Positions 10,945 through 64,000 of a DNA stretch of 64,000 nucleotides are shown one piece after another; within the stretch, counting starts at the first letter, position 1; each line of letters begins with the position of its first letter. The translations under genes and the position numbers were made by a program. The notes under the pieces are model-generated. The model saw nothing but the letters and a program-made list of their open reading frames with translations, was not told the origin of the DNA and searched no databases. This DNA comes from an uncultured Alteromonadaceae bacterium (GTDB lineage Bacteria > Pseudomonadota > Gammaproteobacteria > Pseudomonadales > Halieaceae). The stretch is taken from positions 1-64,000 of the forward strand of contig CAJYAI010000002.1 in NCBI GenBank assembly GCA_913064725.1. The letters are read 5' to 3'.

Positions 10945-12723
10945 TTGACTGAAGCGAGCAAAGATACTAAAGGCGGCGGCGCGATAGCGCGTCATCGCTA
11001 TCTCGAAGTCTTGCACCAGTTTACGATGAGCCAAGCATCGCTCACCGCGGTTGATGATATTTGCTGGAACATCGCGAAAACCGCCATCGGTGATCTCGGT
11101 TTTGTCGATTGTGTAGTTTACCTACTGAACGATGAGGGTTCTGCTCTTACCCAGCGCGCCGCGCACGGCGATAAAAATCCCGGTGACCGCCAGATTCTCG
11201 ATCCTATCGTTATTCCAGTGGGGGAGGGTATCGTCGGTTCCGTTGCCAAGTCCGGGCAATTACAGCTAGTCAATGACACGCGTTACGATCCACGCTATAT
11301 CCTTGATGACAATTTTCGCTGCTCCGAGCTGGCAGTACCGATTCTTCACGATGGGCGTGTCGTAGGTGTACTGGACTCTGAACACCCTGAGCCCCACTTT
11401 TTCTCCGAGGAAGACGTCGCTTTGTTTACGACCATTGCTTCGTTGGCGTCGACGCGTCTAGATACGGCATTGGCCCTCGAGCGCTTAGAGGCGCAAGCGA
11501 TTGAGCTCGAGGAGGCGCGCTCTGCGGCCGAGGCCGCGTCCCATGCAAAGAGCCAGTTTATCGCCAGTATCTCGCATGATATGCGGACTCCGCTGACGGC
11601 GATTATTGGCTATTCGCACTTACTGGAAGAGGGCTCCGGTAGTTCTGAGCAACGCGACAAATGGCAGCGTGCTGTTATTTCTAATGCGCAGTATATGAAC
11701 GGCGTGATTGGCAATATTCTCGATATGGCTGCTATCGAGAGGGGGCAGCTATCGCTAACCATGGACCGTATCGAGGTCAAGGCATGGGTAGCGAGTCTCG
11801 AGCCGTTGATTGAGCAGCGTGCGGAGCAAAAAGGGTTGTCAGTTCTGTTTATAGTCGACAGCAAAGCACCGATTTTTTGGGTGTCTGACCGCGCGAAACT
11901 CAGCGAACTTACGATGAATTTATTAATAAACGCTATCAAATATACAATGCAAGGCCATGTAAAAATTGAAGTTTCTAAGGAAGCTATTAACTCAACTGAG
12001 TATCTCAAAATACTGATTAGTGATTCAGGTATTGGCATCAGTAGTGAATCACTAAGTGCCATTTTCGAGCCCTTTGTGCGGGTCCACGATCTGAAGCACT
12101 ATTCGAAAGTGGAGGGCACAGGACTAGGACTGACCGTCGTTAAGTCCTTTACCGAGGCTCTGCAAGGCAAAATTCATGTGGAGTCCGAGGTCGGGAAGGG
12201 GACATGTGTCGAGGTGCTGATTCCAAGCGGAGAGCGCAACGTCCGCCTCGACAATTCGAGTCAGATTGCCTCTGCTAAGGCCACTGATCCTCACCTCGCA
12301 CAGGTAGAGACCGATACAGGGTGCCTGCTTGAAGCGCGGTCGATTCTTGTTTGCGAGGATAGTCAGACTGTCGCAATGCTCATTCAGGCCATACTCGAGC
12401 GCGCGGGAGCACGTGTCACCGTAGTTGAGAACGGTGCGTTGGCCATTGCGGCTATTGCGCCAGACACCGATCACTTTGACGCAGTCGTTACTGACATTCA
12501 GATGCCCATCATTGACGGGTATGAGTTGGCAAATCAGCTGAGACAACTGGGTTGGGCCAAGCCTATCATTGCGTTGACGGCGCTTGCGGCACCCGAGGAT
12601 AAGGCCCGGTGTCTCGCCGCCGGCTGTTCAGATTACCTCACAAAGCCAATAGACCCTGCCGACTTCCCGACAGCTCTTGCAAACGCAATTCGATCTCACT
12701 CACAAGAGGCGGTGATGCCTTAA
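10945..12723 (+). CDS. Hybrid histidine kinase: GAF sensor, HisKA, HATPase, receiver
   Basis: Cytoplasmic two-component sensor of about 592 aa. The order is an N-terminal GAF domain (roughly residues 25-175), a short coiled coil, HisKA with the phospho-accepting His in SISHDMRTPLTAIIGY (residue 211), and an HATPase_c with N box (NLLINAIKYT), DSGIGI and GTGLGL. It ends in a receiver domain with the acceptor Asp in AVVTDIQMP and the lysine in YLTKPID. There are no membrane helices. I prefer the TTG at 10945 because GGAG sits five bases upstream; the track's TTG at 10918 lacks one. No response regulator or Hpt gene is adjacent, so its output is unknown. Its stop overlaps that of the convergent phosphotransferase. 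Confidence 0.9.
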   Translation: MTEASKDTKGGGAIARHRYLEVLHQFTMSQASLTAVDDICWNIAKTAIGDLGFVDCVVYLLNDEGSALTQRAAHGDKNPGDRQILDPIVIPVGEGIVGSVAKSGQLQLVNDTRYDPRYILDDNFRCSELAVPILHDGRVVGVLDSEHPEPHFFSEEDVALFTTIASLASTRLDTALALERLEAQAIELEEARSAAEAASHAKSQFIASISHDMRTPLTAIIGYSHLLEEGSGSSEQRDKWQRAVISNAQYMNGVIGNILDMAAIERGQLSLTMDRIEVKAWVASLEPLIEQRAEQKGLSVLFIVDSKAPIFWVSDRAKLSELTMNLLINAIKYTMQGHVKIEVSKEAINSTEYLKILISDSGIGISSESLSAIFEPFVRVHDLKHYSKVEGTGLGLTVVKSFTEALQGKIHVESEVGKGTCVEVLIPSGERNVRLDNSSQIASAKATDPHLAQVETDTGCLLEARSILVCEDSQTVAMLIQAILERAGARVTVVENGALAIAAIAPDTDHFDAVVTDIQMPIIDGYELANQLRQLGWAKPIIALTALAAPEDKARCLAAGCSDYLTKPIDPADFPTALANAIRSHSQEAVMP

Positions 12724-13733
12724 TCGGTGTAAGCCGCTCCCATCGCTGACAGGGGTTCTACCATGGCCGCTTTTGCTGCGGCTTCTGGGCTTGATGCGGT
12801 GCCTATTTGAGCTCGCTTTCGTATTCCCTGCGTAATTGATGCCAGGCGGAAAAAGCAAAACGCCATATAAAAGTGCCAATCTTTGATACCAGGTTGCCCG
12901 GTGCGCTCGCAGTACAGATCAATATAGCTGTCATCATCAGGGATGCTTAGCTCCGATCGATTCAAACCCGCTAAGCCGTTGATGCCAGATTCTCTTGGAA
13001 ATTGCCACGCCATAAGCTGGTAGGCGAGATCGGCAAGGGGATGCCCCAACGTCGACAGTTCCCAGTCTAGAATGCCGATAATGCGCGGTTCGGTTGGATG
13101 AAAAATCATATTGTCGAGACGGTAATCCCCGTGCACTAGTGCGACGCGACCATCGTCCTCTGGCATGTTGTTGGGCAACCACTCAATGAGTTTTTCCATC
13201 TCCGCGATGCTGTCTGTCTCGGCGGCTCGATATTGTTTGGTCCATCTCCCAATCTGACGCTCAAAATAGTTACCCGGCTTTCCGTAATCACTTAGGCCAA
13301 CCTCCTCAAGGTTGAGCATATGCATATCGGCCATGACCTGGTTCATTTGATCGTAAATCGCTGCCCGGTGGTGGTCGCTTACCTCCGGTAATGCGGGATC
13401 CCAGAAAATCCGTCCCTCGAGGTGTTCCATGATGTAAAACATGGAGCCAATGACCGCGTCGTCGTCGCATAGGGCGATAGCTCTCGGGACCGGGACACGC
13501 GTCGGCTCTAACGCCGATAAGACCTTAAACTCCCGATCTACTGCATGCGCCGAAGCGAGCAGTGTGCCCATGGGCTTGCGGCGCAGCACGTAGTGTCGGT
13601 CACCTGACGTAAGCTTAAATGTGGGATTGGACTGTCCCCCGGCAAATTTTTCGGCGGTTAGATTGCCCGCAAACGAGGGTACGTGATCCTTCATCCAACC
13701 ACTCAGATGCGTTAAGTCGAGTTCTTGCGCCAT
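12720..13733 (-). CDS. APH-like phosphotransferase (ACAD10/11 kinase-domain type)
   Basis: Kinase-fold protein of 337 aa in the aminoglycoside-phosphotransferase superfamily. It belongs to the acyl-CoA-associated branch: FAGGQSNPTFKL (glycine loop), YVLRRKPMG (ATP lysine region), catalytic loop LVHGDYRLDNMIFH and metal-binding ILDWELSTLGHPLADLAY. This branch matches the kinase domain of ACAD10/11 and LvaA, which phosphorylate 4-hydroxyacyl-CoAs; it is not an antibiotic-resistance enzyme. The neighbouring divergent acyl-CoA ligase and enoyl-CoA hydratase support a role in fatty-acid catabolism. A GGAG lies upstream of the ATG. Confidence 0.85.
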   Translation of the reverse strand: MAQELDLTHLSGWMKDHVPSFAGNLTAEKFAGGQSNPTFKLTSGDRHYVLRRKPMGTLLASAHAVDREFKVLSALEPTRVPVPRAIALCDDDAVIGSMFYIMEHLEGRIFWDPALPEVSDHHRAAIYDQMNQVMADMHMLNLEEVGLSDYGKPGNYFERQIGRWTKQYRAAETDSIAEMEKLIEWLPNNMPEDDGRVALVHGDYRLDNMIFHPTEPRIIGILDWELSTLGHPLADLAYQLMAWQFPRESGINGLAGLNRSELSIPDDDSYIDLYCERTGQPGIKDWHFYMAFCFFRLASITQGIRKRAQIGTASSPEAAAKAAMVEPLSAMGAAYTD

Positions 13734-57737: not shown

Positions 57738-58055
57738 ATGCCAGTTATAAAGTTCATTGAATTCGATGGGACCACGCACGAGGTCGATGCAGATGAGGGT
57801 ATGAGTGTCATGGAAGTGGCAATGAAGTATGACGTCCCCGGGATTGATGCCGACTGTGGTGGTGGTGCGGTCTGCGGAACGTGTCACTGCTTTGTGGAAA
57901 AATCCGCTGGGTCCTTGCCAACGGTTGATCCTCAGGAGGAATCAATGCTGGGGCTGCGCCCAGATCGAGAGAGTAATTCGCGCTTGAGTTGTCAGCTTCA
58001 GGTCAGTAACAGCATTGGCGATATGACGGTAAAGCTTCCCGAATTTCAGATGTAG
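57738..58055 (+). CDS. 2Fe-2S ferredoxin (P450 electron donor)
   Basis: Adrenodoxin/putidaredoxin-type ferredoxin of 105 aa. Cysteine ligands lie in DADCGGGAVCGTCHCF and the fourth in NSRLSCQLQVS, giving the C-x5-C-x2-C...C spacing of vertebrate-type ferredoxins. The gene is 14 bases before the P450, so it should feed electrons to it. The partner ferredoxin reductase is not in the window. Confidence 0.93.
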   Translation: MPVIKFIEFDGTTHEVDADEGMSVMEVAMKYDVPGIDADCGGGAVCGTCHCFVEKSAGSLPTVDPQEESMLGLRPDRESNSRLSCQLQVSNSIGDMTVKLPEFQM

Positions 58056-58069
58056 AGCGTCGGTGGGTT

Positions 58070-59323
58070 ATGAATGACAAGCGTGATCACATCATCCCTG
58101 ACTCACTAACGACACCACTTTCAGATCTTGATGTCTCAGATCCCAGACGGTTTGAGCAAGACTGCTGGCAACCCCTGTTTAGGAGGTTGCGAGCAGAGTC
58201 GCCGGTTCACTTTCAAGCGTCGAGTCCTGCCGGGCCGTTTTGGTCTATAACGCGCTTTGACGATATCGTTGAGATTGAAAAAAATACCCAAATTTTCTCG
58301 TCAGAGCCCACGATAGCCATCGTTGACCCGCCCCCAGATAGAGGCTCACTGATGTTTATTGCGATGGATCAGCCCGAGCATGATATTCAGCGGCGTGCGG
58401 TTCAGCCCGTTGTAGCACCAAAGAATCTCAGGGAGTTTGAGACCTTGATCCGCCAGCGCACGGGAGAGGCGTTGGACGCTCTACCCATTGGCGAGGTCTT
58501 TGATTGGGTTGAGCTTGTCTCACGCAACCTGACCACGCAGATGCTAGCTACGCTCTTTGATTTCCCTTGGCAGCTTCGTCATAAATTATCGGAGTGGTCA
58601 GATGCGATCACATCCGACGAGCGGATGACTGCGGGTCGCGGTCTAACCGAGGACCAGCGTTTAGATGTGATTATGGAGATTTTGGAGGTCTTCACGCGGC
58701 TATGGCACGAACGGGCGGGAGATGGTGTTGAGTCCTTTGACCTAATTCGACTTTTGCAACGTGACGCTCATACGGCCAACCTGGTCAATGATCCCAAAAA
58801 TTACATTGGGAATCTTATTTTACTGATAGTGGGGGGCAACGATACGACGCGGAACTCCATGTCGGGTGGCGTTTTATTTCTCAACGATTTTCCAGAGCAG
58901 TTTGAGCGTGTAAAGGCTGACAGGAGTCTTATCCCATCCATGGTCTCTGAAATTATCCGTTTTCAGACGCCACTGTCGCACATGCGGCGAACCGTGACAC
59001 AGGATACCGACTTTAAAGGTCATAGGATGAAGGCGGGTGACAAGGTGGTCTTGTGGTATTGCTCCGCCAATCGAGACGAATTGGTGATCCCCAATGCAGA
59101 TCGTTTCCTGATCGATCGATCCGGCGTGCGCAATCATGCGGCCTTCGGGTTCGGTATTCACCGTTGTATGGGCAATCGTCTGGCTGAAATGCAGCTGCGG
59201 ATTGTTTGGGAGGAGGCCCTGAAGCGTTTTGCCACCATCGAGGTTGTGACGCCTCCCACACGCCTTTGCCATAACTTTGTTCGCGGCTACTCACATATGC
59301 CAGTGCGCGTACAGCGTCATTAG
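58070..59323 (+). CDS. Cytochrome P450, CYP153 type (alkane hydroxylase-like)
   Basis: Bacterial class I P450, 417 aa. I-helix motif: LIVGGNDTTRNSMSGGVLF. ExxR helix: SEIIRFQTPLSHMRR. Heme-binding loop: AAFGFGIHRCMGNRLAEMQLRIVWEEALKRF. The N-terminal pattern (DLDVSDP, PVHFQASSPAGPFWSITRFDDI) and VAPKNLREFE are very close to CYP153, soluble terminal hydroxylases of medium-chain alkanes and related lipids. This substrate class is inferred from the family. The ferredoxin gene lies 14 bases upstream. Confidence 0.88.
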   Translation: MNDKRDHIIPDSLTTPLSDLDVSDPRRFEQDCWQPLFRRLRAESPVHFQASSPAGPFWSITRFDDIVEIEKNTQIFSSEPTIAIVDPPPDRGSLMFIAMDQPEHDIQRRAVQPVVAPKNLREFETLIRQRTGEALDALPIGEVFDWVELVSRNLTTQMLATLFDFPWQLRHKLSEWSDAITSDERMTAGRGLTEDQRLDVIMEILEVFTRLWHERAGDGVESFDLIRLLQRDAHTANLVNDPKNYIGNLILLIVGGNDTTRNSMSGGVLFLNDFPEQFERVKADRSLIPSMVSEIIRFQTPLSHMRRTVTQDTDFKGHRMKAGDKVVLWYCSANRDELVIPNADRFLIDRSGVRNHAAFGFGIHRCMGNRLAEMQLRIVWEEALKRFATIEVVTPPTRLCHNFVRGYSHMPVRVQRH

Positions 59324-59500: not shown

Positions 59501-60246
59501 ACAATAGTGTACTGCCCGCTGTCGGGATTGATGGCTGCAGAGCCGGATGGATTGTCGCGTACAGACATGAGGGGTGTGTTGCACTCAGGTTATTTACATC
59601 CCTGGCTGCTTTGAATGAGCGATTAGCGAGTGATGCGTCGGTTATGATTGATATGCCTATCGGGCTGCATGTCGCTGACAGCGTAAGACAGTGCGATGTG
59701 CTTGCTCGACGCTGTCTCAGTCCTTATCGATCAACCAGTGTTTTTGGCGTACCACCGAGACCCATCACACGCATAGGGGACTATGCGGAAGCAAATGCAG
59801 CGTCACGCGAACTGACTGGAAAAGGCTTGAGTAAGCAGTCTTTTTACTTGTTTCCCAAAATAAGGGAGGTGGACGACTGGTTGATCAATGAGCATCGGCA
59901 GGGGCGGTGGAGTGAATGCCATCCAGAGGTGGCCTTTGCGTCGTTGAACGGGGGGCTCCCTTTGGAAGAGTCAAAAAAAACGGATCTTGGCCGGCAGCAG
60001 CGCATCGATCTTCTTCGCGAGGTGGGTGATGTCGACGGATGCCTCGCCACAGCGCTGGAGATGTATCCGCGGAGGGCCCTTTTGGCAGACGATTGTGTTG
60101 ATGCTCTCGTGTGCCTCCTAACCGCGGAGAGACCACAGAGTGAGCGAATCGCCATTCCTGATAATGCCTTTCACGATGCGCGAGGACTGGCCATGCAGAT
60201 CGTGGCGCCCGCAGTCAAATTAACTGGCGACTTTGAGCGCGGCTGA
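59497..60246 (+). CDS. DUF429 protein, RNase H-like fold
   Basis: 249 aa protein of the DUF429 family. AVGIDGCRAGWIVAYRH resembles the first strand (Asp-containing) of RNase H/actin-like nuclease folds; further conserved segments are VMIDMPIGLH, ARRCL, YLFPKIREVDDWL and ECHPEVAFASLNGG. A nuclease function has been predicted for the family but not shown. It starts at GTG, right after the minisatellite. It ends inside the convergent amidohydrolase gene by 27 bases. Confidence 0.78.
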   Translation: MNNSVLPAVGIDGCRAGWIVAYRHEGCVALRLFTSLAALNERLASDASVMIDMPIGLHVADSVRQCDVLARRCLSPYRSTSVFGVPPRPITRIGDYAEANAASRELTGKGLSKQSFYLFPKIREVDDWLINEHRQGRWSECHPEVAFASLNGGLPLEESKKTDLGRQQRIDLLREVGDVDGCLATALEMYPRRALLADDCVDALVCLLTAERPQSERIAIPDNAFHDARGLAMQIVAPAVKLTGDFERG

Positions 60247-61971
60247 CTCCGGCGCGTCCTGAGGTCCTCTGATTAAGCCTCCTGGTGTTGTGCCTAGAAA
60301 GCGTCCGCCATCGAATGTTTGGACACCTGATTTGAAGGTGGCGCGATATCCCGTCGCAGATTGGAGCAATCGCTTGCCGCCTGCGGGTAGGTCACGAGCG
60401 ACCCATGGCTGACTCATACCGATCTTATCGAGTTCGATAATATTAATATCAGCGAGGTATCCCGGTGCAAGAATACCCCGATCCTCGAGTCCGTAAACGC
60501 GAGCCGTATCGGCACATTGGCGCTTTATCGCCTCGCTTAGAGTGATACGAAATCCATCACGATCTCGCACCCAATGCTGCAGCATGAAGGTAGGCGACGC
60601 TGCATCGCAAATCGTGCCGCAGTGGGCACCACCATCTGACAATGAGTTGATGCAGTCATCAGATTGCAAGACGGGCTCGAGAAAATTCAAGTTACCATCG
60701 GCGTAGTTAAGCAATGGAAAATAGATAAATCCCGTTCCATTTTGGCCCGTCATTAAATCGTAGGCATACTCAGCACCCGATACGCCGGCGCCAGCCGCGA
60801 GATGGGCAATGGATTGTTGTTCCGTGGGCTCGTAATTGAATCCTTCGGTTAGCGCATATTGCATGTCAAAGGCGTTGGCCATGAGTTGGCCCAGTAACTG
60901 TAGCTCACTATCGGGGAAAATAGAGTCTTCCGCTATGAGCTTTGCCTTGAAGTCAGGGTCCAGTAGCTTCTCGAGTTGTGCGGATTCGCCGAGATCTGCG
61001 GCTTCTGCCCAACTGGGTTTAAAGGAAAAAGGGTTAAACGTGGTCCGCCAACCGAGAACTAGGCCTGTGCCTCGCATGGAAATTTGAGCGAGAATATTGG
61101 CACCTTTGGCATTTTGCTCGCGCATCTGTGCCAGTTGATCGTCAAAGTTCATCGCTTTTATCGGTGACTGCAAGGCTGCGAACGTGACAGGTACTCCTGA
61201 CTCTCGACTCAGATCACCCATCCACTCAAACTCATTCCACTCGGGCAACAGATCGCTCGCCATTTCGAAGACGCCATGTCCTGCCCGCTTCATCCCTTTT
61301 CCTATGCCCATTAACTCTTCAGGTGTGGCGGTTGTCCCCGGCACTAACTCTCCGTCGATCGACTTGTGAAGAACGGTGCGCGATGTTGAGAACCCTAACG
61401 CGCCCGCTGTTAAACCCTCTTCAACGATCTGCGCCATTCGAGCAATATCAGACTCGGTTGGTGGCTCGTTTGCCGCGCCACGATCACCCATAACATAGGC
61501 TCTGACCGCTCCGTGCGGTACCTGCGTGGCAACATCCACAGCTCGGGGCATGGCTTCTAGCGCGTCTAGGTATTCAGGAAAGCTCTCCCAATTCCACTTC
61601 ATCCCTTCGGATAGTGCGGACCCCGGTATGTCTTCAACGCCCTCCATCAGGCCAATCAACCAGTCGTGTCGATCTGGAGCAGCAGGGGCAAAGCCGACTC
61701 CGCAGTTACCCATCACGACCGTTGTTACGCCATGCCAAGAGGAGGGAGCCATTTCTTCATCCCAGGTCGCTTGTCCGTCGTAATGTGTGTGTATATCGAC
61801 AAAACCCGGTGCAACATAGCAATCACGTGCATCGACAATCCGAGCCGCTTCTCCTAGATCAGTGCCAATCGCCATAACTCGGTCGCCTGTAACTGCTACG
61901 TCGGCGACGAAGGGCGCGGCGCCAGTACCATCAACGACAGTACCGTGCTTGATAATCAGATCGAATGTCAT
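60220..61971 (-). CDS. D-aminoacylase-like amidohydrolase
   Basis: 583 aa metal-dependent amidohydrolase, most like N-acyl-D-amino-acid deacylases. The first metal site is [35 protein letters not shown] and SDGGAHCGT (with Asp near the C-terminus) follow. These match the DAA/DAN-type plan. It could instead be a dihydropyrimidinase-like enzyme, but HTHYDGQ...[17 protein letters not shown] is the D-aminoacylase form. Together with dat and alr 53 kb away this suggests D-amino-acid use, though they are not linked. There is no signal peptide. Confidence 0.84.
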
Positions 61972-62118: not shown

Positions 62119-63384
62119 ATGAATTTCGATATTCCCACGGATGTTCGTCAGTTTCTCGATGAGGTGGAACAGTTCATTGAGCGAGAGATCAAGCCCCTTG
62201 AAAGCGCGGATGACAACATGCGCTTTTTTGATCACCGTCGGGAGGACGCAAGAACCGACTGGGATCGTCAGGGCCTGCCAAGCGAGGAGTGGGAAGCATT
62301 GCTTGCTGAGGCAAAGCGCCGGGCAATAGCGGCGGGAATTTACAGTTATCCATTCCCCAGCGGACACGGCGGACGAGACGGCAACAATCTCGGGATGGCG
62401 ATTGTAAGAGAACACCTCGCAGCCATGGGGTTGGGACTGCACAACGATCTTCAGAACGAGCATTCAATCGTCGGAAACAATATTGGATTGCTGTTGATGC
62501 TGGAGTACGGGACGCCTGAGCAGCAAGCAGAGTGGTTGCCAGGTCTAAAAAACGCGACTCGCGGTTTTGCCTTCGCGATCTCCGAGCCAGACCATGGCTC
62601 AGATGCTACTCACATGGAGACGGTTGCCCATCGTGATGGTGACGATTGGGTGATTAGTGGTGTTAAAACCTGGAATACCGGCGTTCACGCTGCCCACAGT
62701 GACATGGTGATGGCACGAACCTCCGGCAGCGCCGGGGACGCCCAGGGGATTACTGCATTTCTGGTTCCTATGGATGCCGCGGGTGTGGAAATAGAAGAAT
62801 ATCTGTGGACGTTTAATATGCCATCGGATCACGCTCGGGTTAGGTTCAACAGTGTCCGTGTCCCCGATGAGGCCATTTTTGGTGGTGAGGGGAGAGGACT
62901 GCAGGTAGTGCAGCACTTCTTTAATGAAAACCGAATTCGTCAGGCGGCCTCGAGTCTGGGCGCGGCGCAATACTGCGTTGATCAAGCTGTGGCGCACGCA
63001 AAGGAGCGAAAGCCGTTTGGTAAGGCCCTAGCGACTAACCAGGGTATTCAGTTTCCTCTCGTGGACCTGCAGGCGCGCTGTGAAATGCTGCGAGCGTTGA
63101 TTCACAAGACGGCATGGCTAATGGATCGTGACGGTGCTTTTTCCGCCTCAGACAAGGTTTCGATCTGTAACTATCAAGCCAACCAACTGTGTTGCGAGGC
63201 TGCCGATACGGCCATGCAGGTTCATGGTGGTATGGGCTACTCTCGCTATAAGCCTTTTGAGCATATTTATCGACATCATCGGCGATATCGGATTACCGAG
63301 GGCGCTGATGAAATTCAAAAGCGGCGCGTCGCAGGTTATCTATTCGGTTTCATGGGACAGAAAAAGCCCAAGGGCGTCAGTTAA
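62119..63384 (+). CDS. Acyl-CoA dehydrogenase
   Basis: Flavoprotein of 421 aa that removes hydrogens from an acyl-CoA. Motifs: FAFAISEPDHGSDATHMET (FAD/substrate), KTWNTGVHAA, and the C-terminal AMQVHGGMGYSRYKPFEHIYRHHRRYRI, a common ACAD signature variant. The usual Glu catalytic base is not obvious in this segment. The following gene, three bases away, is an APH-like phosphotransferase, a pairing that mirrors ACAD10/11. Confidence 0.9.
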   Translation: MNFDIPTDVRQFLDEVEQFIEREIKPLESADDNMRFFDHRREDARTDWDRQGLPSEEWEALLAEAKRRAIAAGIYSYPFPSGHGGRDGNNLGMAIVREHLAAMGLGLHNDLQNEHSIVGNNIGLLLMLEYGTPEQQAEWLPGLKNATRGFAFAISEPDHGSDATHMETVAHRDGDDWVISGVKTWNTGVHAAHSDMVMARTSGSAGDAQGITAFLVPMDAAGVEIEEYLWTFNMPSDHARVRFNSVRVPDEAIFGGEGRGLQVVQHFFNENRIRQAASSLGAAQYCVDQAVAHAKERKPFGKALATNQGIQFPLVDLQARCEMLRALIHKTAWLMDRDGAFSASDKVSICNYQANQLCCEAADTAMQVHGGMGYSRYKPFEHIYRHHRRYRITEGADEIQKRRVAGYLFGFMGQKKPKGVS

Positions 63385-63386
63385 TT

Positions 63387-64000
63387 GTGCTCGAGGTTGA
63401 TTTCGAATCAAAGTTGTCGAAGTTTGTTGAACGCTCACTTTCAGGGATGCGACTGGTCAGTGTTCAGCAGCTCACGTCAGGCGCCTCGCAACAAACGTTT
63501 AAAGTCAGCGTTAAAGACAGCGAGGCGAACGAGTATCATTATGCTCTGCGCCGCGCGCAGCCTGGGTTATCGGCAACGTCGCAAGGACAAGTAACGCCAT
63601 CCACCGAAGCGGCACTCCTGGGCCTGGCCGCAGATGCCAATATTCCCGTGCCCACTGTTGCGGCATCACTCAGGCCCTCAGATAACTTGGGTGAGGGTTA
63701 TCTAATGGCGTGGCTAGAGGGCGAAACTTTAGGTCAGCGTATTGTTAAAATACCTGAGCTCGGGAAGTTCAGACCAACACTGGCCTATCAATGTGGCCAA
63801 GCCCTTGCGCGCATTCACGCCATAGACGTGCCCAGCGCGATCAAGGATTCGCTGAGTTGTGTGTCTCCAGCATCCTTGGTCCACGCAACCTGGGAGACCT
63901 ACATCGCACTTAATACCCCGCAGCCAATGATTGATTTTACCGCGCAATGGCTACTGCACAATCTGCCACCCGACGTTGATGCTCGATTGGTACATGGCGA
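63387..64000 (+). CDS. APH-like phosphotransferase (partial, runs off the end)
   Basis: Open to the window edge: 204 complete codons from the GTG at 63387, three bases after the acyl-CoA dehydrogenase stop, with AAGGG upstream. The N-terminus LEVDFESKLSKFVERSLSGMRLVSVQQLTSGASQQTFKV shows the glycine loop; YALRRAQPG the ATP lysine region; GYLMAWLEGETLGQRI the hinge; and LVHG at the edge begins the catalytic loop. It is homologous to the phosphotransferase at 12720 and probably acts with the dehydrogenase. The track omitted it because it has no stop. Confidence 0.82.
   Translation, partial: MLEVDFESKLSKFVERSLSGMRLVSVQQLTSGASQQTFKVSVKDSEANEYHYALRRAQPGLSATSQGQVTPSTEAALLGLAADANIPVPTVAASLRPSDNLGEGYLMAWLEGETLGQRIVKIPELGKFRPTLAYQCGQALARIHAIDVPSAIKDSLSCVSPASLVHATWETYIALNTPQPMIDFTAQWLLHNLPPDVDARLVHG

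Follow-up and report, generated by a model that had tools for sequence, protein, structure and literature searches.

A candidate second class of LvaAB-type kinase and acyl-CoA dehydrogenase module encoded by adjacent genes in a Halieaceae bacterium

The acyl-CoA dehydrogenase (ACAD) and kinase genes at the downstream end of the window (the whole 64,000-nucleotide stretch of DNA that was analyzed) are best explained, at a probability of about 0.5, as a two-gene module of a second LvaAB-kinase/ACAD class, which would phosphorylate a hydroxyacyl-CoA and then process it. The two genes form a strongly conserved functional unit with obligate-like genetic coupling, and the dehydrogenase belongs to a clade, here the E-type clade, in which the residues that hold phosphate in ACAD11 are replaced and the catalytic base is Glu. 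The features discussed are as follows.

62119 to 63384, + strand: 421-aa E-type acyl-CoA dehydrogenase, with Glu394 as base and an RIRQAASS helix in place of the HCMR of LvaC/ACAD11
63387 to 64000, + strand: N-terminal part (APH) of a fused LvaA-LvaB-type kinase, GTG start
60220 to 61971, - strand: Amidohydro_3 family protein of 583 aa, its gene pointing away from the dehydrogenase-kinase module
12720 to 13733, - strand: 337-aa kinase of the ACAD10/11 type, free-standing and outside the module

The sequence bears out the gene pair. The dehydrogenase reading frame starts with ATG, ends with a TAA at 63384, and codes for PF02771 (N-terminal), PF02770 (middle), and PF00441 (C-terminal) domains; two bases separate its stop from the kinase GTG at 63387, the start being the third base past the stop, just as an earlier note on this DNA had it in placing an APH-like kinase three bases after the dehydrogenase. 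The kinase gene crosses the window end and finishes at contig position 64766, coding for 459 aa (L007:7388-8767) with an APH domain (PF01636, E 4e-32, residues 26 to 269) and a DUF6285 domain (PF19802, E 1.7e-22, residues 367 to 454), the latter encoded at contig positions 64485 to 64748, outside the window. A promoter and terminator scan of the pair gave no signal above that of shuffled sequences. We note that window positions 57738 to 59323 code for a 2Fe-2S ferredoxin and then a CYP153A-type P450, with CYP153 alkane hydroxylases as the best PDB matches. The association of these two genes with the module is conserved only within the genus and oppositely oriented genes intervene, and we reject it on these grounds as a clue to the substrate.

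The APH catalytic motifs of the kinase are intact, including HGDFRNGN (HGDxxxxN; D205 and N210) and DWE (D223), and APH and DUF6285 are joined in one polypeptide. A complete lva-like operon is encoded on a Stutzerimonas stutzeri plasmid (NZ_CP078510; locus L082), comprising a PrpR-type regulator, APH, DUF6285, histidine phosphatase, ACAD, SDR, acyl-CoA synthetase, DUF485, and acetate symporter; its ACAD is of the HCMR/Asp type. In Pseudomonas putida, LvaB (12 kDa) is reported to bind LvaA and to be required for growth on levulinate (PMC6692424). Because DUF6285 lies at the lvaB position of the lva-like operon, we read the kinase as a fused LvaA-LvaB, identifying DUF6285 with LvaB by operon position and size, with the P. 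putida protein compared by description. The window pair thus resembles LvaA, LvaB, and LvaC of P. putida and the S. stutzeri operon in that an APH kinase with conserved motifs, DUF6285, and an ACAD relative are encoded together. It differs in that LvaB is fused to the kinase, in that no SDR, ligase, LvaR regulator, or transporter is attached, and in that kinase and ACAD each fall in a clade apart from that of their lva operon counterparts. A fold search with a kinase-DUF6285 model returned APH kinases, with no match to the DUF6285 part among the best 50, and a full-text search of the open-access literature found no papers on DUF6285. In LvaC-type clusters of Thermus, Azoarcus, Azospirillum, and Stutzerimonas (five loci), a histidine phosphatase family gene follows DUF6285.

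The pairing extends well beyond this genome. Among 80 named loci, whose ACADs are 71 to 82% identical, a kinase adjoins the E-type ACAD in 61, spread over several phyla; of the others, five are at the end of a contig and 14 lack a kinase neighbor. A stricter same-strand count retains 59 of the 61, and with adjacency of only about 0.7% expected by chance (from 6 APH matches in the 2.63-Mb genome), the pairing is not a chance one. Close orthologues of the dehydrogenase and of the kinase are found in an identical set of 13 genomes in a sample of the same genus and order. More broadly, among 399 Pseudomonadota genomes an E-type ACAD is present in 31, DUF6285 in 40, and both in 30, such that 30/31 ACAD-bearing genomes have DUF6285, compared with 10/368 of the rest (Fisher P = 1.9e-35, a value that overstates the evidence, since the test treats genomes as independent and many share a family, one family alone supplying 12). 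In the 31st ACAD genome, the kinase next to the ACAD gives a degenerate match to DUF6285. In the ten sampled genomes in which the ACAD has no adjacent kinase, an APH-DUF6285 pair or fusion is encoded elsewhere in all ten, and of the ten DUF6285 genomes lacking an E-type ACAD, eight have an HCMR/Asp ACAD adjoining the kinase.

The better argument for coupling comes from the varied gene orders and the kinase tree rather than from the P value. The fused kinase may lie downstream, and separate APH and DUF6285 genes either upstream or downstream; in a tree of 65 kinases the partner type changes just once, which together with the co-occurrence indicates that kinase and ACAD diverged as pairs. No third gene, including substrate or transport genes, is conserved with the pair in the neighborhoods of the module loci, and we abandoned deduction of the substrate from neighbors for this reason. 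We note that in six genomes of the same genus an E-clade fused kinase is present but E-type ACADs are absent, which, like the lack of conserved substrate or transport genes around the module, counts against the module reading.

The dehydrogenase is where the window pair departs from the known systems. In mouse ACAD11, R626, H634, and R637 hold the 4-phosphate and D753 is the base, and the ACAD step is lost when R626, H634, or R637 is replaced non-conservatively with Ala or Leu (PMC12440821). The earlier note proposed a split ACAD10/11-LvaA/LvaC-type module, in which LvaC/ACAD11 active-site residues would be found in the dehydrogenase. Instead, in a register set by the ACAD11 sequences (R626 in QGR, R631, HCMR, and D753, with window R272 aligned in the same set), F267, Q275, and S278 lie at R626, H634, and R637, and E394 lies at D753. 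The same Phe/Gln/Ser and Glu occupy the clamp and base positions in 117 of 117 collected E-type orthologues. In the LvaC/ACAD10/11 clade, Arg at the R626 position and Asp at the D753 position are found in all 18 members, and the HCMR His and second Arg in 17, the exception being an ACAD on contig 7 of the same genome. H238 (H597 of ACAD11) and R391, three residues before the catalytic acid, are common to the E-type and LvaC/ACAD10/11 clades and absent from canonical ACADs. E394 aligns with the SCAD Glu and is at the MCAD Glu376 position. The window enzyme is like SCAD and MCAD in fold, FAD domains, Glu base, and a conserved Arg (R272), but is only about 27 to 28% identical to them, has an N-terminal insertion, and shares the E-type clade's own invariant residues (R274, Q275, H159, H190, W230, N233, H386, H387, and R389, as well as H238). 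A fold search with the dehydrogenase model gave generic ACAD matches and did not discriminate between these classes.

Phylogeny is in accord with the residues. In a careful, unrooted tree of three clades, the E-type ACADs form a separate clade (support 100/100) apart from 13 canonical ACADs. In a wider quick tree that includes the genome's other ACADs and has long branches, the window dehydrogenase is separate from those ACADs and the E-type clade is sister to the LvaC/ACAD10/11 clade (SH-aLRT 98), a relationship that we regard as likely, given its long stem and the lack of a root in the careful tree. On sequence grounds, the window dehydrogenase is neither an LvaC/ACAD11-type enzyme nor an ordinary beta-oxidation enzyme; clustering with the latter, which the earlier note had named as evidence against its proposal, is not what the trees give. 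What survives of that proposal is the LvaA-family kinase, with motifs intact and LvaB fused, and the conserved unit; the LvaC/ACAD11 character of the dehydrogenase does not.

In the module that we favor, the kinase, with its C-terminal LvaB (DUF6285) part helping phosphorylation, would, judging from its family, phosphorylate a hydroxyl on an acyl-CoA, and the ACAD, whose base is Glu and whose pocket is built differently, would process the phosphorylated acyl-CoA to an enoyl-CoA entering beta-oxidation. Action of the ACAD on the phosphorylated product is suggested by its exclusive coupling to the kinase and its kinship with LvaC, and we infer a hydroxyacyl-CoA substrate and departure of phosphate in the ACAD step. 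Since the enzyme lacks both the Asp and the phosphate ligands published for ACAD11, the pocket would either hold phosphate differently or accept a substrate other than that of LvaC. We tentatively suggest, at somewhat short of even odds, an independent second route of hydroxyl removal, in which an LvaAB kinase has co-evolved with sister ACADs that have a Glu base and no cationic clamp, the substrate or hydroxyl position probably being other than the C4 of ACAD10/11. The absence of the ACAD11 phosphate clamp and the presence of a Glu base, as in ETF-linked dehydrogenases, both count against the favored reading.

Kinase-plus-ACAD dehydroxylation has reportedly been explained only recently, in 2017 for LvaABC (Rand et al.) and in 2024-2025 for ACAD10/11. 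Its catalytic mechanism is described as unclear (PMC12440821), and an open-access literature search for a described kinase-ACAD pair of the E type gave ACAD10/11 papers only. A conserved natural pair in which the clamp and catalytic acid are replaced and the kinase is kept would reveal which residues the reaction really requires, and would give access to an uncharacterized catabolic route in about 8% (31/399) of the sampled Pseudomonadota genomes. It also gives DUF6285 a working role as an LvaB-type kinase subunit, and cautions that not every kinase-ACAD pair should be annotated as a module for 4-hydroxy fatty acids.

The main rival is that the ACAD is a true ETF-dependent enzyme for a polar or branched acyl-CoA that never touches phosphate, with dehydrogenation before or after a kinase step elsewhere in the pathway (e.g., one making a tertiary or omega-hydroxyl into a leaving group for another enzyme). 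A Glu at the MCAD/SCAD position and uncharged residues in place of the ACAD11 phosphate ligands are as expected for such an enzyme, and adenylating CoA ligases, enoyl-CoA hydratases, or CoA-transferases adjoin several loci. There is also a relative by fold, the 25-hydroxysteroid kinase of Sterolibacterium (PDB 9FSG/9FT5), which is likewise APH-like and phosphorylates an alcohol to set up loss of the phosphate; it makes a phosphoester for which the phosphate-eliminating lyase is reported as unknown (PMC8449060). Its substrate, however, is a steroid rather than an acyl-CoA, identity in the fold match is about 18%, and neither DUF6285 nor an ACAD partner is reported for it. The strict one-to-one link between ACAD clade and kinase clade exceeds what is usual for two steps of a general pathway, no third gene is kept with the pair, and the ACAD is kin to LvaC, with H238 and R391 in common, rather than to the sampled beta-oxidation ACADs. 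We consider ETF-dependent dehydrogenation rather unlikely on balance, though a serious competitor.

The usual LvaC/ACAD10/11 module acting on 4-hydroxy fatty acids, simply split over two genes, would account for the same gene types, the LvaA-LvaB kinase, and an ACAD clade near LvaC. Mammalian ACAD10 and ACAD11 (PDB 8V3U and 2WBI) also have kinase and acyl-CoA dehydrogenase domains as a working pair, together with the shared His and the Arg preceding the catalytic acid; the window pair, in contrast, is two separate proteins without HCMR, without R626, and with Glu rather than Asp, and the ACAD10/ACAD11 kinase domains lack DUF6285. The catalytic Asp and each of the three residues published as binding phosphate are replaced, invariantly so, and these replacements and the separate clade lead us to reject a plain LvaC/ACAD11 assignment. 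The genome, moreover, has a separate, real ACAD10/11-type set, and in Sulfitobacter both ACAD types lie near one kinase, suggesting different jobs. The standard module is thus improbable here.

That separate set is the one to which the use of 4-hydroxyacyl-CoA, ascribed by the earlier note to the window pair, is the better fit. The kinase at 12720 to 13733 matches the ACAD11 kinase domain at 1e-86, as against about 1e-10 for the module kinase, and by this comparison is the stronger of the two candidates for the known 4-hydroxyacyl-CoA kinase in this genome. Its likely partner is encoded on contig 26 (C26:22836-24014), an ACAD that has HHCMR and Asp and matches ACAD11 at 1e-121. We note that the 12720 to 13733 kinase gene and a gene for an AMP-binding CoA ligase are divergently oriented, with an enoyl-CoA hydratase gene nearby.

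Least probable, and by some way, is a kinase acting on something other than an acyl-CoA (e.g., a free alcohol or drug-like compound) with the ACAD paired for metabolic convenience: APH-fold kinases have very varied substrates, the nearest folds of the kinase model include steroid and antibiotic kinases, and the six kinase-only genomes fit, but the kinase is nested among LvaA-LvaB kinases, carries DUF6285, and co-occurs with the ACAD (P = 2e-35). An ordinary beta-oxidation ACAD beside a chance neighbor is rejected by the co-occurrence and by the congruence of the kinase tree.

The two-gene module is found in Gamma- and Alphaproteobacteria, Actinomycetota, and Myxococcota, and in haloarchaea with a more divergent small partner. 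Three haloarchaeal plasmid loci code for an E-type ACAD and an APH kinase accompanied, in between or alongside, by a helical protein of roughly 159 aa; this protein has weak similarity to LvaB and may be a divergent form of it. Hydantoinase/oxoprolinase, acetoacetate decarboxylase-like, or AMP-binding genes are neighbors at these loci. The ACAD-less fused APH-DUF6285 kinase of the same genus (five loci, L174 to L178) adjoins a gene for a 570-aa amidohydrolase-like protein. Lastly, the contig 7 ACAD (C7:1546-2736) falls in the ACAD10/11 clade and has the Asp (ADGPDEVH) with QYAMG at the HCMR position; its phosphate site may be a naturally occurring variant.
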